Assembly (NCBI RefSeq): GCF_018141405.1
Contig: NZ_CP058648.1
Coordinates: 3,064,502 to 3,128,501, forward strand
DNA: 64,000 bases
Reading direction: 5' to 3'
Origin: Serpentinicella alkaliphila
Lineage (GTDB): Bacteria; Bacillota; Clostridia; Peptostreptococcales; Natronincolaceae
The first letter of the stretch is position 1. Every line of letters begins with the position of its first letter. Position numbers and translations under genes: made by a program. A model generated the notes under the pieces. The model was not told where the DNA came from, ran no database searches, and saw only the letters and a list, made by a program, of their open reading frames with translations. Shown here one piece after another: positions 3,632 through 60,213 of this stretch.

Positions 3632-4594
3632 CTATACTTCAATATCAACAACTCTTTTAATTAAAATAACTCCAACTATCTCAGAAAGTAACCCACCAAA
3701 TAGTATCATTAAACCTACTCTAGATTTTACCATTACATTCATATATGACGGGTTTATAAGCATTAAGATAGCAAATAAAATAGGTGGCATTAATCCAATA
3801 ATTAGTCCTGATATTCGTCCCTGTGCTGTAAGTGTTTTAATTTCACCTTTAATTCTAATTCTCTCCCTTATTGTAAATGAGATATTATCTAGAATTTCTG
3901 CGAGATTCCCACCTATTTGTCTTTGAATTAACACAGCGGTGATAAGCAATTCTAAATCTTCACTCTCTGCCCTTTTTGTTAAATTAATTAGTGCATCATC
4001 TATTGTAGTTCCTAAATTTATTTCTCTATTTGTTTTTCTTAACTCATTTGCTAAAGGGCCATTCATTTCTTTACCTACTAAGTCTATAGCTTGTTGAAAA
4101 CTATACCCTGCTCTTAAAGAATTAGCCATAACCGTTAAGCAATCTCCAATTTGAAGATTTATCTTTTCAGCTCTAGTTCGTCTTTTTCTCTGTATAATTA
4201 CTTGAGGAACTGAAACACATAGAATAGATAATATCAAAATAGGACCTACCCCTCCAAGTATAACGCCCCCAATAATTACACTAAAGATTAAACCTAAAAT
4301 GTTTAACCCTAAAAACTCTTCGCCTCTCATAGGAATTTCAGCCTTTAACAGTTGATTTTCTAGTTTTTTAGTCAAGGTTACTGTAACAAAGAATTTACCA
4401 ATAATACGCAAGATGTTCTTTTTACTTATTTTTTGATTCTCCTTTGATTCCTCGATAAAGGCATTTTTATGGAGCTCCGAATAGTTTTTTAACCGTAATG
4501 CTATAGGGCTTTTTTTACTTCCAATACTTAAGTAAAGTCCTAATAGAGACAATAGTACTGTCATAAAAACTAAAGTTGAAATAATTGGTTCCAT
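3632..4594 (-). CDS. tadB: TadB, type II secretion F-domain inner-membrane protein
   Basis: A 320-residue polytopic protein, partner of TadC in the pilus assembly platform. It has an N-terminal helix, two helices at about 100-140, the T2SS F domain with LRAGYSFQQAIDLV, a central segment with a conserved ELLITAVLIQRQIGGNL and ILDNISFTIRERIRI, and a C-terminal helical pair. A GGGGGAG ribosome-binding site precedes the ATG. It sits between cpaF and tadC, the canonical order. Assignment as TadB rather than TadC rests on gene order and on the RQIGGNLAEIL segment. Confidence 0.92.
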   Translation of the reverse strand: MEPIISTLVFMTVLLSLLGLYLSIGSKKSPIALRLKNYSELHKNAFIEESKENQKISKKNILRIIGKFFVTVTLTKKLENQLLKAEIPMRGEEFLGLNILGLIFSVIIGGVILGGVGPILILSILCVSVPQVIIQRKRRTRAEKINLQIGDCLTVMANSLRAGYSFQQAIDLVGKEMNGPLANELRKTNREINLGTTIDDALINLTKRAESEDLELLITAVLIQRQIGGNLAEILDNISFTIRERIRIKGEIKTLTAQGRISGLIIGLMPPILFAILMLINPSYMNVMVKSRVGLMILFGGLLSEIVGVILIKRVVDIEV

Positions 4595-55148: not shown

Positions 55149-55625
55149 TTAACTATTCATTAATTGAGCAAAGTTATTAATATTATCTTCTAAAATATTT
55201 GATGTATCTTTATCTATTTTTACAACTTTTTTTGTTATCAACTTATCTAAAAATCCCATCTTATTAAATATAAATTCACCACCAAAATTTTCTATTGCTA
55301 CTGCATTTAATCTAAGTTCTTGAGGGAATGAGGCTCTAATCTGCTCTTCTATAGACTCTCCTTCTCTCATACTACATACAAATAACCCAATTTTTTTAGA
55401 AATTAGCTTTTGTAAATTATCTTTGCAAAAATTAACTACTTCATTTTGGATTTTACCAATATATATTGACCCACCGATTATTACTTTATCATACAAAGAT
55501 ATATCTATTTTTTTACCTTCCTTCAAATTAACTAAATCAATAGAACCTTTTAGTTTTTCAGATAGTTTTTTAGCGCATTTTTCAGTGCATCCATACTTAG
55601 TCGAATAAACAATTAAAGTTTTCAT
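55149..55625 (-). CDS. flavodoxin-domain protein
   Basis: A 158-residue protein: N-terminal FMN phosphate loop VYSTKYGCTEKCA, VIIGGSIYIGKIQNEVVNF and GLFVCSMREGE, which fit the flavodoxin/HemG-type fold. HemG-like proteins reduce protoporphyrinogen or move electrons, but a generic electron carrier is the safe call. Its start overlaps the MarR stop (ATGA), so the two are coupled. Confidence 0.87.
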   Translation of the reverse strand: MKTLIVYSTKYGCTEKCAKKLSEKLKGSIDLVNLKEGKKIDISLYDKVIIGGSIYIGKIQNEVVNFCKDNLQKLISKKIGLFVCSMREGESIEEQIRASFPQELRLNAVAIENFGGEFIFNKMGFLDKLITKKVVKIDKDTSNILEDNINNFAQLMNS

Positions 55626-56095
55626 TCACTTACCTCCTCAACATCTTCTAAACATTTTATTTTTTCCGAGAGCTTAAAGATTCCGATCAACATTGCATTT
55701 AATTCCTCTTGATTTAAATCTATAAACAGCTCTTCTAAAAATTTATTACTCTCATCCTGTAAACCTTTCCAAAATTCATAACTTTTATTTGTTAGTCTAA
55801 GTCTTATGGCTCTTTTGTCCTTTTCATCCTTTTCAAGATTTAAAAAACCCTTTTCTTCAAGCTTTAAGGCTATTTGCTTTATATTCTGTCTTGAGCTACC
55901 AATAATCTTTGCCACCTCACTCAATGTTGGTGGACTCTCGAAAAATTCTTCTATTACTGCAGTAAGAAACCATTGCTTAGCTGTCATGTCATGCATAGCC
56001 AATGATTTATCTAGTATAACTTGAAGTTTATTTGAGATTAAAAATAGTCCACCAAATATTTGCTTTTGTTTATACAATTCTTCAGTCTTATTCAT
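55622..56095 (-). CDS. MarR-family transcriptional regulator
   Basis: A 157-residue winged-helix regulator. The DNA-binding region TLSEVAKIIGSSRQNIKQIALKLEEKGFLNLEKDEKDKRAIRLRLT (helix-turn-helix and wing with the typical DxRA-like KDKRAIRLRLT) begins near residue 55. First gene of the flavodoxin operon. Two palindromes with TAGGTAA arms lie just upstream, one on its -10 box, which points to autorepression. Confidence 0.9.
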   Translation of the reverse strand: MNKTEELYKQKQIFGGLFLISNKLQVILDKSLAMHDMTAKQWFLTAVIEEFFESPPTLSEVAKIIGSSRQNIKQIALKLEEKGFLNLEKDEKDKRAIRLRLTNKSYEFWKGLQDESNKFLEELFIDLNQEELNAMLIGIFKLSEKIKCLEDVEEVSE

Positions 56096-56126
56096 ATGTC
56101 TACACCTATCTTTTCCGAAAATTAAA

Positions 56127-56180
56127 TAGGTAATACGTTACCTACATAAGTAATATATTACCTATTTGCCTTTTTGTCAA
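56127..56180 (-). promoter_or_regulatory. MarR promoter and operator palindromes
   Basis: On the minus strand TTGACA (56175-56180) and TATATT (56152-56157) are 17 bases apart. The palindrome GTAATATATTAC (56150-56161) covers the -10, and a second one, TAGGTAA-TACG-TTACCTA (56127-56144), lies at the start site. Both match a MarR-type operator. Confidence 0.75.
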
Positions 56181-56208: not shown

Positions 56209-56513
56209 TTACACTGTTTTATGTTTTTTAAGTTTTAGTAGTTCCTTAGCAACAAGTTCAAGAACTAGGGTTTCTCTTTCAATATATACTCCTTTAGACT
56301 TTTCGTTTCTCTCAATTACCTTCTTATTATGATTTATTGCTTCTTTAATATCTACCCATATAGGAGTCATTCCATTAGCTATTTCATAATCCTCTAATTT
56401 TGCCTTATCGAAATTTTCATTGATATCACAAATATAAAAATATGCTAAATTGTGAATTATATCATACTTAGGGTTATAGTGAGGTAGGAACTCTTCTATA
56501 TAACCGAATTCAT
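56209..56513 (-). pseudogene. C-terminal fragment of a NUDIX hydrolase
   Basis: On the minus strand an open frame from the RIT element end to a TAA at 56209: DEFGYIEEFLPHY to ETLVLELVAKELLKLKKHKTV, about 100 residues. It continues the fold of the NUDIX fragment at 59932-60213, from which it was separated by the 3.4-kb RIT element. There is no ribosome-binding site, so it is not a separate gene. Confidence 0.8.
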
Positions 56514-56635
56514 CTTATGGAAAGTAATTTATTATGTGAAGTTGGTAGCTAAAATCGTTACATTTCAATAGAATATTTGTTTTTAACTTTGCATAATAAT
56601 TTCTGATATAGTAGATAGAAAAGGAGAATTCAGTG

Positions 56636-57862
56636 ATGAATATGACTACTATATCATTAAAACAATTAATCAGTAGTGTAGAATCACACCTTAGTGCTTC
56701 TGGATATTCCAAAAATACAATTAACAGATATCGTTCTTGTTGGAGAAAAATATTAAAACGATGCAGTATTTATGGAATAGAAGAATTTTCTTATAAAAAA
56801 TGTTTGTCATTTATTCAAGAAGAATACAATATCCCATCATTAGAAAACCTCAAGCACCACCATGTATTTTATCTTAGGACTATTAAAGTTTTGAATGAGT
56901 ATGCACTATATGGTAAGATTCTTAAATGTCATCAAAAATTAGGAGTTCAGGTAGTCTCAGAATTTGCAGATATATTATCCGAATTTCTAAATACTGGATT
57001 AGAATCTGGATTGACTAAAAGGACTATAGAAGGTAAATCTATTCAACTAACAAGTTTTCTTAATTATATTGAGAAAATTGGTATAAGGAAAATTAGTCTA
57101 CTGGAACCAGAACCTATTCTCTCATATGTGAAATATATTTCCGAAAAGGGTTATTCTACGTCTACTAGAAGTGGTATTCTGTTCACATTAAGAAACTTTT
57201 TATCCTTCTTATATGAAAAAAAGTATATTACTACTCCCATGCAGCAATTATTTCCTGTTATTTTTTCTAATAAAATGGAGCGTATTCCATCTTACTATAA
57301 TGAAGATGAACTTAAGAAAATACTTTCACATGTAAATAGAGATAAGGACATAGGTAAAAGAGATTATCTAATTTTATTGCTTGCCATACAATTAGGAATT
57401 CGTGCTGGTGATATCCGGTTAATGAAGTTAGAATTCATAAAATGGAGCAAAAATACAATTGAATTTATTCAGCAAAAGACAGGAAATCCAATTCAAATCC
57501 CCTTGCCCGATAATATTAAATATGCAATTATTGATTATATTAAAAATGGTCGCCCAAAGGGAGAGTCCCACTATATTTTTTTAAGACATCGAGCGCCATT
57601 TGTACCTTATGGATCAACAAATGTATTTCATTATGTAATAACTCGATATATGGATGAAGCGATGGTATCTTATTCAGATCGTAAACATGGATTGCATTCT
57701 ATGAGACATAGTTTGGCAAGTAATCTACTAAAAAACAATACACCCTACCCAGTAATTACAGGGATACTAGGGCATGAAAATACAAGTACAACTCGCCTGT
57801 ATCTATCAATTGATATTGAGCAACTCCGCTCTGTAGCATTGGAGGTGGCATATGAAGAGTAG
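56636..57862 (+). CDS. ritA: tyrosine recombinase, RIT gene A
   Basis: A 408-residue site-specific recombinase that appears intact. The C-terminal catalytic domain has the Arg in AIQLGIRAGDIRLMK, the HxxR box SMRHSLASNLL (Arg-I context HGLHSMRHSLA), GILGHENTSTTRLYLS, with the Tyr nucleophile. The N-terminal 200 residues hold the SAM-like core-binding domain. GTG 56633 and ATG 56636 are both possible starts; AAGGAG (56621-56626) is six bases from the first and nine from the second. Its end overlaps ritB by 11 bases. Confidence 0.9.
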   Translation: MNMTTISLKQLISSVESHLSASGYSKNTINRYRSCWRKILKRCSIYGIEEFSYKKCLSFIQEEYNIPSLENLKHHHVFYLRTIKVLNEYALYGKILKCHQKLGVQVVSEFADILSEFLNTGLESGLTKRTIEGKSIQLTSFLNYIEKIGIRKISLLEPEPILSYVKYISEKGYSTSTRSGILFTLRNFLSFLYEKKYITTPMQQLFPVIFSNKMERIPSYYNEDELKKILSHVNRDKDIGKRDYLILLLAIQLGIRAGDIRLMKLEFIKWSKNTIEFIQQKTGNPIQIPLPDNIKYAIIDYIKNGRPKGESHYIFLRHRAPFVPYGSTNVFHYVITRYMDEAMVSYSDRKHGLHSMRHSLASNLLKNNTPYPVITGILGHENTSTTRLYLSIDIEQLRSVALEVAYEE

Positions 57863-58852
57863 AGAGATTACCTATATCTTTACGGGTCCCCTCGCAGAAT
57901 ATTGTACAAAGTATATAGTCTATAAACGCAGTCTTGGATTTAAAATGGGATCATCTGTTTATTATCTTTTAAGGGGAATGGACACTTTCTTTTTTCAGCA
58001 TGGTCTACCATTAAATTCTCACATTCTCACCAAAGAAATGGTAGAAAAATATGTAGCACGTCGGGGAGTAGAATCAGTTAAAACACAACATATGAGAATG
58101 AGCATTATTCGTCAATTTTCTTTGTTTATGAACCGAATAGGCTTTAGCTATTATGTATATCCTGAAACAGATCTTGTTCAAATTAAAAATGATTTTACTC
58201 CATATATTTTTACACACAATGAGATAAATAGACTAACTAAAATCCTTGATAAAATTCCAATTAGTCCAAGATATCCAACATACCATATTATATATCCGAT
58301 GTTATTTAGGATGCTTTATGGATGTGGACTAAGAATTAATGAAGCCCTTGGTTTGAGAATGAAAAATTTAGATATTGAACAAGGAATCATAAGGTTGGAT
58401 GCCACCAAGAATAACATACAACGTCTGATGCCTATGTCCAAATCACTACTTAAATATTGTAAAAAGTATGTAAAGAGAATGGGTTTTTCATCTACATATG
58501 ACGGTTACTATTACCCTAGTAAAAATGGTAGTCAATATAATAGCACCCCCGTATACTGTCAATTTAGAAAGTTTATGACCTTTCTTTGGAATATTTAGAG
58601 AAAATGGAACAACTCCTCGAGTACATGACATTCGCCATACGTTTCTTTGTCCATGCTTTGGAAAAGATGGTTGACGAAGGAAATGATATATACTGTTCAC
58701 TTCCAATTCTAAGCACATATCTTGGACACAGGGGTTTGGAAAGCACAGAAAAATACCTTCGATTAACAATTGAAGCCCATGCTTCCATCATTGACACAAT
58801 GACTGAGTACTACAACAATGCCTATCCGGAGGTGGTAGACTATGAAAATTAA
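57852..58852 (+). pseudogene. ritB: tyrosine recombinase, RIT gene B, frameshifted
   Basis: A recombinase with Arg in LYGCGLRINEALGLR and downstream, in two other frames, VHDIRHTF (HxxR) and THLGHRG-type STYLGHRGLESTEKYLRL with the Tyr. The reading frame changes at about 58583 (after MTFLW) and again near 58640 (after RHTF), so the gene as it stands cannot make a full protein. Without these shifts it would be about 333 residues. It overlaps both neighbours by 11 bases, as in other RIT elements. Confidence 0.85.
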
Positions 58853-59857
58853 TTATTTTCAACAGTTACTGTCCTCTTACTTTCTAAAACATATACCTGA
58901 ACGTACAAATTACAGTGATAATACGATTAAATCTTACAGAGATACATTCATTCTTCTCTTTCAGTACCAGGAAGAGTTTCTAAACAAATCGATTTCTAAA
59001 ATGAGACTTGAGACGTTGTCCAGAAAATATTTAGAAGACTTTCTAGTTTGGTTAGAGAAAGAAAAACAATATTCCGTGTCAAGCATTAATCATAGGCTCT
59101 CGGACTCCATGCTTTCTTCAAATATATCCAAATGGAAAAGCCCGAGTATATTGAACTTTGTTCATCAATATTTGATATTAAAACTCGCAAAGTACCTATT
59201 ATTCCAATGAACTATATCTCAGTAGAAGCCATTAAACATCTATTTCGTCTTCATGACAGTTCATCTACAGAAGGACGAAGAGAAATGGCAATATTAGTTC
59301 TCCTTTATGATAGTGGGGCTAGAGTTCAGGAAATTGCTGATTTAACTTTTGGAGATATTCGAAACATAAAACCTGCTACAGTAAAATTAACAGGAAAAGG
59401 CAATAAAACAAGAATTATACCCCTAATGCCACAAACACTTGATATCCTAAATATCTATATGAATGACTGCAAAAGAAAAAAAGAAATGCAACCTGTACAT
59501 CCCTTGTTTTTCAATAAAAAGTTTGAGAAACTTACAAGATTTGGAATTGCTTATATATTAGATAAATATGTAAAGAAAGCAAGGAGTCTACATCCAGAAC
59601 TATTTTCAGGAAAGATATCACCACATACCTTAAGACATAGTAAAGCTATGCACTTGTTAGAAGGCGGAGTAAATTTAATTTATATTAGGGACTTTTTAGG
59701 CCATACATCTGTTATTACTACAGAAATTTATGCAAAATCAAATCCTGAAATTAAACGTAAGGCAATAGAAGAAGCAAGCCATAATGTTTTACCGCTAGAA
59801 AAATATTCAGAAAAGGAGAAAGAAGAAATGATAGAATGGCTTAAAACAATTATCTAA
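58842..59857 (+). pseudogene. ritC: tyrosine recombinase, RIT gene C, frameshifted
   Basis: A recombinase of about 338 residues read in two frames. The N-terminal part (to about 59100) is a core-binding domain; the C-terminal part has YDSGARVQEIADLTF (Arg), SPHTLRHSKAMHLLEGG (HxxR) and FLGHTSVITTEIYAK (His and Tyr). The frame changes after SSINHRLS at about 59104; a one-base change would give LHAFFKYIQMEKPEYIELC and continue. The two frames overlap, so the protein is split. Confidence 0.85.
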
Positions 59858-59931
59858 AAAAATTATGTGAAGTTTGAAGCTGATATTTGGTTGGTTTAAT
59901 CAGTATATTGCTTCTTACTTCACATAATAAA

Positions 59932-60213
59932 TCACTTTCCATAAGACGAATTATGAAAAGCTTTGCATAATTCGTCTATTATTTGTATATTAGTTGCACC
60001 CGTCTCTTCCTCAAGCTCACGTTTTAGTCCTCTTATTAAATCCTCATCGGGATCAACTCCGCCCCCTGGGAAACTGTAATCATTATATCTTTTAGTATAT
60101 TGTAGTAATATCTTTGAGTCTTTTAATATAATCCCTCTAGCTGTAATTCTCTTAGAAACTCTTCCATCTAATTTTTCTAAACTTTTATGTACTATCTTTT
60201 CAATTAGTCTCAT
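59932..60213 (-). pseudogene. N-terminal fragment of a NUDIX hydrolase
   Basis: The first 93 codons. The NUDIX box is visible: GGGVDPDEDLIRGLKRELEEETG, matching GX5EX7REUXEEXG in its main part (REL-EEETG). It reads ELCKAFHNSSYG and then runs into RIT end DNA, stopping at 59932. The rest of the gene is at 56209-56513. AAAGAGGTG precedes ATG 60213. The intact protein, about 190 residues, would have been a nucleoside-diphosphate-X hydrolase. Confidence 0.88.

Follow-up and report, generated by a model that had tools for sequence, protein, structure and literature searches.

A NUDIX hydrolase gene of Serpentinicella alkaliphila that carries a RIT element raises the question of how such elements find their targets and by what route they move. 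RIT elements have been known since 2009. A survey of 2012 regarded their mobility as unproven, found that their ends differ, noting only an inverted repeat of 28-9 bp and an overlapping palindrome, and mentioned RITs lying within a transposase gene and within radC (PMC3414803). RitA, RitB and RitC were described in a 2021 classification, RitA with two core-binding domains and RitC with an extra C-terminal helix (PMC8138268), and a 2023 table gives target specificity and movement of RITs as not tested (PMC10214605). The accessible literature does not say where exactly RITs end, by what rule they choose a target or how they move. We addressed these points by comparing the element found in a 64,000-nucleotide stretch of contig NZ_CP058648.1 (the window) with its sister copies and about 50 relatives.

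The window element consists of three tyrosine recombinase genes in the order ritA-ritB-ritC, with 11-bp overlaps, between inverted ends (Table 1). Three genes were counted between the ends, and Pfam assigned all three products to Phage_integrase. RitA matches the RitA protein of plasmid pHG1 at 1e-58 and has SAM-like matches at residues 11-46 and 124-197, as judged by Pfam. The preliminary description had called ritA intact, in agreement with its open frame and catalytic residues. Catalytic residues are also present in all three recombinases of loci L108 and L109 and of 23 other elements; those of the window ritB and ritC are not readable through the miscalls discussed below.

Table 1. Window coordinates of the RIT element, its end motifs and the NUDIX gene that it interrupts
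Feature	Position	Strand	Remarks
NUDIX 3′ half (C-terminal part)	56209-56514	-	DEFGYIEEF... continues directly from NIQII of the other half
Far-side 6-bp core	56509-56514	+	TTCATC
Element proper	56515-59944		3430 bp; flanked by 6-bp cores; 20-bp linker on right only
Left end, arm 1	56515-56524	+	TTATGGAAAG
Left arm 2	56532-56541	+	TTATGTGAAG; +17 from arm 1
Left arm 3, inverted	56587-56596	-	CTTTGCATAA; +72 from end
ritA	56633-57862	+	Tyrosine recombinase, open frame; R257, H355, R358, H381 and Y390 present
ritB	57852-58852	+	Tyrosine recombinase; frame broken at two GCTG sites in the assembly (miscalls)
ritC	58842-59857	+	Tyrosine recombinase; frame broken at one CAGC site in the assembly (miscall)
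Right arm 3, inverted relative to right end	59863-59872	+	TTATGTGAAG
Right arm 2	59918-59927	-	CTTCACATAA
Right end, arm 1	59935-59944	-	CTTTCCATAA
Middle 6-bp core	59945-59950	+	GACGAA; reverse complement of outer core
20-bp palindromic linker	59951-59970	+	TTATGAAAAGCTTTGCATAA
Linker-side 6-bp core	59971-59976	+	TTCGTC; direct repeat of 56509-56514, one difference
NUDIX 5′ half (N-terminal part)	59977-60213	-	Pfam NUDIX, E 3.5e-11; homologues uninterrupted

The two NUDIX halves rejoin without gain or loss when the element, the linker and one copy of the 6-bp core are removed, and the homologues in related genomes, with 64-65% identity, are unbroken genes. Thus, the NUDIX gene is cleanly split by a genuine RIT element, as the preliminary description had proposed from the three overlapping recombinase genes, the inverted ends and the NUDIX halves outside them. 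Of the two comparisons that it suggested, the one with uninterrupted NUDIX homologues confirmed the exact joint, and the one with other RIT copies yielded the 6-bp cores, the palindromic linker and the exact ends. Its idea that the ends can be read from the split gene was sound, but the ends as first read had to be corrected to those of Table 1. The longest inverted pair, 56507-56549 and 59910-59952, measures 43 nt with 88% identity, about 36 bp of which lie within the element proper. Elsewhere in the window, two near-identical imperfect palindromes at 56124-56167, AAATAGGTAATACGTTACCTA and TAAGTAATATATTACCTATTT, immediately precede the gene of a MarR-type regulator on the minus strand (55622-56095) and are likely to be its operator.

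For the comparison of RIT ends we used 32 loci from related genomes and a further 80 from a set of genomes of bacteria and archaea, where the scan gave 564 relatives of the window RitA and the 80 best were used; some loci share one genome (L106/L107 and L137/L139), and flank assignment is uncertain for a few. Contigs were scanned for RitA with a five-sequence alignment, an alignment of 16 RitA proteins being too diverse. The search for a common plan made no use of the 6-bp repeats for selection, and 43 elements, of median length 3444 bp, fit it.

The plan reads target, 6-bp core, element, 6-bp core, 20-bp palindromic linker, 6-bp core, target, which in the window corresponds to TTCATC, element, GACGAA, TTATGAAAAGCTTTGCATAA, TTCGTC. 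Every junction of element, linker and target is a core, i.e., a 6-bp spacer either between inverted 10-bp arms (TTATGNNAAG type) or between an arm and the target. The outer cores are direct repeats of each other, and the middle core is their reverse complement. Among the 41 elements with both flanks, the outer 6-mers agree at 5.1 of six positions and are identical in 20 cases, compared with a mean of 1.8 and a maximum of 2.6 in 5000 shuffles. The outer repeat is exactly 6 bp wide, since identity is high over six positions and drops to background outside. The middle 6-mer matches the outer ones at 5.15 of six positions as reverse complement, versus 1.22 when read directly. Two inverted arms that match the element's own arms make up the linker, which is 89% palindromic (consensus TTATGNNAAGCTTNNCATAA), versus 30% for the sequence on the other side. 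The linker is found on the left in 23 and on the right in 20 of the 43 elements, and it adjoins either ritA or ritC. Of 86 ends, 77 have a second arm at +17 and about 61 a third arm, inverted, between +70 and +73. The arm-core-linker pattern occurs once in the window and in none of 100 shuffles. The same end plan was found on plasmid RITs of Cupriavidus necator (pHG1), Rhodococcus, Sinorhizobium and Allorhizobium, the pHG1 element obeying the core-linker plan as the window element does.

We named the target genes by reading across the junctions and by Pfam analyses of the flanking halves, which returned IstB, RVT_1/GIIM, IS66 and rve/HTH_21 for split targets. In these genes the 6-bp core coincides with codons of a conserved motif. 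Five elements are in the Walker B motif of IstB (IIDE-GY), with the core GAYGAA encoding Asp-Glu, to which the look-alike site of the window can be added, and six are in the IstB Walker A motif (G-GK[TS]H; core GGNAA, Gly-Lys). Group II intron reverse transcriptases are hit eight times in the QGG of PQGG-ISP (core GGNGGN, Gly-Gly), and IS66 transposases four times at HADET (core GAYGAA, Asp-Glu) and twice at other sites. Further targets are IS3-type transposases at H[ST]DRG (3) or DWYSR (1), amidoligases (4), the ritC gene of another RIT (1), and single cases in ArdA, CHAP/lysozyme and DNA polymerase A domains, besides a few others. On the RitA tree, the six main target classes require 5 changes, the minimum, versus at least 15 after shuffling, and the orientation of ritABC requires 9 versus 9.7 on average after shuffling. 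It follows that target class is inherited and that ritABC orientation is not. In these loci, each RIT clade has a single target, made of the codons of a catalytic or conserved motif, mostly in genes of other mobile elements.

All the remaining members of the window clade, L106 to L109 and the sister copy L009, interrupt IstB Walker B. At the insertion point of the NUDIX gene the encoded residues are IIDEFGY, which resembles IIDE-GY of IstB, and the gene appears to have been hit because of this resemblance, as an off-target insertion at a nucleotide look-alike of the IstB Walker B motif.

In L182, a RIT interrupts a tyrosine recombinase gene of ritC-like appearance, other than its own, at the codons of the active-site motif HxLRH. 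In L122, the interrupted gene reads YDYILIDC...LTINALAAADEVII and resembles a ParA-type ATPase in its Walker B region, which would make it another hit in an Asp-containing Walker B motif. A subfamily with short RitA proteins of 315-324 aa and 3.1-kb elements (L114, L129, L140, L163) is found in IS66 HADET throughout, and a subfamily with long RitA proteins (634-646 aa) has 4.1-kb elements (L102, L105).

Within each of the six target classes the linker lies on a constant side of the target, with ritABC reading either way. This holds for 30/30 elements, sides within a class being not fully independent, although the random orientation of ritABC on the tree argues against simple inheritance. Relative to the target coding strand, the linker is upstream in Walker B (6/6), reverse transcriptase (8/8) and IS66 HADET (4/4) insertions, and downstream in Walker A (6/6), IS3 (3/3) and amidoligase (3/3) insertions.

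The S. alkaliphila genome (3.26 Mb, one contig) contains two further RIT copies with 99-100% identity. One of them (L009, also sampled as L002) interrupts an IS21-type istB gene and reads GACGAA, TTATGAAAAGCTTTGCATAA, TTCGTC, element, GACGAA, so that the linker is beside ritA in this copy and beside ritC in the near-identical window copy. The asymmetric linker nevertheless has the same orientation relative to ritABC in both copies, on opposite sides. In a second recent pair, L137/L139, the linker is likewise on opposite sides of ritABC, with its orientation unreversed.

We infer from these patterns that RITs are mobile through active recombinases, by way of a circle and with a need for core matching. 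RitA, RitB and RitC would recombine the two outer cores to form a circle with the order IR-R, core, linker, core, IR-L, in which two equivalent cores in inverted orientation share the 20-bp palindromic linker. Either core of the circle could then recombine with a 6-bp target that agrees with it in sequence and polarity. The side of the linker would be fixed and ritABC free because both cores of the circle read IR, spacer, linker: relative to the target, the linker would always end up on the same side, and the direction of ritABC would depend on which core is used. The element would thereby bring its own spacer: of the two outer cores, one would derive from the circle and the other from the target. 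Each recombinase lineage would have its own choice of target, namely conserved-motif codons in a gene that usually is mobile as well; for the window lineage these would be GAYGAA (Asp-Glu) of the IstB Walker B motif. A transposon that moves via such a two-core circle to lineage-bound targets is in our estimation the best explanation of the data, and quite a probable one.

The main rival is inversion in place, i.e., a one-way integration after which ritABC flips between the left and middle cores while linker and target stay fixed, orientation being a phase switch. The left and middle cores are indeed inverted repeats with matching spacers around ritABC, and a fixed linker side is predicted by this mechanism as well. 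An asymmetric linker should then, however, be turned round with respect to ritABC between copies with the linker on the left and copies with it on the right. Reversed linkers are seen in L160 and L103, which belong to older pairs, but the window/L009 and L137/L139 pairs both keep the same orientation. We thus consider inversion in place unlikely as the explanation, but L160 and L103 suggest that it, or inversion of the linker, also occurs or has occurred. Still another reading would make the linker a pre-existing palindrome of the target, RITs merely having a preference for palindromes, since it is palindromic and always between element and target. This has hardly any chance of being correct, given that one element with one and the same linker is found in unrelated targets (NUDIX in the window, istB in L009), that uninterrupted NUDIX homologues have no palindrome at the site, and that the linker arms match those of the element.

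A last rival would make the window element a decayed copy. The preliminary description had counted two frameshifts in ritB and one in ritC and wondered whether the copy is trapped or relies on another one; the breaks exist in the letters as given, but they stem from the assembly and not from mutation. Nearly all differences among the three aligned RIT copies are at CAGC or its complement GCTG, with a few at homopolymers. Each break in the window is at such a site, where the sister copies read otherwise while being broken at other CAGC sites. Among ten alignable 16S copies, 15 of 27 variable clusters contain CAGC/GCTG, a motif that with one base on either side makes up 5.4% of positions, and the typical change from CAGCA to CAAAGA recurs among them. 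Unrelated IS copies (L012-L017) have similar clustered indels, and in relatives all three rit genes are open with the recombinase signature in 25/43 elements. As functional 16S genes cannot carry such changes, we attribute them to systematic assembly or base-calling errors, and the ritB and ritC frameshifts are errors of the same kind. True frameshifts in a copy mobilized only by another one are thus very improbable: the notion of a trapped copy loses its support, decay was rejected on the 16S, IS and sister-copy comparisons, and the window copy need not be trapped. The systematic miscalling of CAGC/GCTG, seen for example in 16S loci L186-L196 and in the IS loci, probably reflects a modified motif. 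Any frameshift at CAGC/GCTG in this genome is suspect, and frameshift counts of the assembly are unreliable.

Some copies depart from the plan. Approximately nine resolved loci have no linker, and linker-free elements have one and the same half of the target motif on either side (L110, L165, L096, L086), as illustrated by the flanks DETPVQ and DETTLQ of L110 and GPPGVGK and GPVGTGK of L165. Conversely, L162 has two linkers and the linker-side half-target on both sides (GTPQGG twice, in the left flank to 5349 and at the right end). Linker-free and two-linker RITs are apparent reciprocal products of recombination between copies, with the side rule kept. The third S. alkaliphila copy (L010, also L003) also lacks a linker, with istB on its right and a truncated IS on its left. 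That IS, present in about seven copies in the genome, is cut exactly at the RIT arm, with TCTCTC as the core. Insertion into the IS was rejected, because intact copies of the IS differ in how the left flank goes on and because the linker is missing; L010 was treated as a rearranged copy and looks like a recombinase-made deletion or the outcome of inter-copy recombination. A metagenome-derived contig (L074, also L131) has IR-R, core, linker, core and IR-L in a row at 3990-4040 (oriented), the order predicted for the circle; it could stem from a circle or from copies in tandem. Viral contigs, when scanned for the double-core circle junction, had none, and the 3.4-kb contigs checked for terminal overlaps as circle evidence had none.

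The window element is of the known RIT type, and the mechanism is the new part. It has adjacent overlapping A, B and C genes alone, terminal inverted repeats and a length near 3.5 kb, like described RITs such as that of pHG1 (overlapping recombinase genes A, B and C, approximately 3.45 kb, terminal inverted repeats, several identical copies per genome). Tn554 and the strand-biased circularizing integrative elements (SE) also have several tyrosine recombinases and carry along a 6-bp core, which is transferred from the donor to the new site (PMC10214605). However, their partner genes are different (TnpC and Tfp/Srap, respectively), and the paper that describes them mentions no palindromic linker or two-core circle (PMC10214605). 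The Tn554 family has TnpA, TnpB and the non-recombinase TnpC, whereas the window element encodes three Phage_integrase proteins only. GInts similarly have three integrase genes and are site specific, but they require a fourth gene (PMC5385486, PMC10214605), and none was seen in the window element; SE and GInts comprise four genes including one of the Tfp/GinC type, as opposed to the three between the ends here. The 6-bp core, the 20-bp linker, the side rule and the target classes are additions to described RITs, parts of whose ends may already be in Ricker 2013.

The plan fixes every core with base precision, predicts the junction of the circle and makes the mechanism of RIT transposition testable. 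It would explain both the presence of RITs in transposon genes, as the DNA of catalytic motifs is conserved most strongly in hosts that are dispensable and present in many copies, and the NUDIX insertion of the window as a look-alike hit. With somewhat less assurance than for the window element itself, we think it likely that RITs represent a distinct mode of transposition, using a circle with two inverted cores, leaving orientation free while the linker side is fixed, and with lineages addressed to the catalytic-motif codons of other mobile elements.
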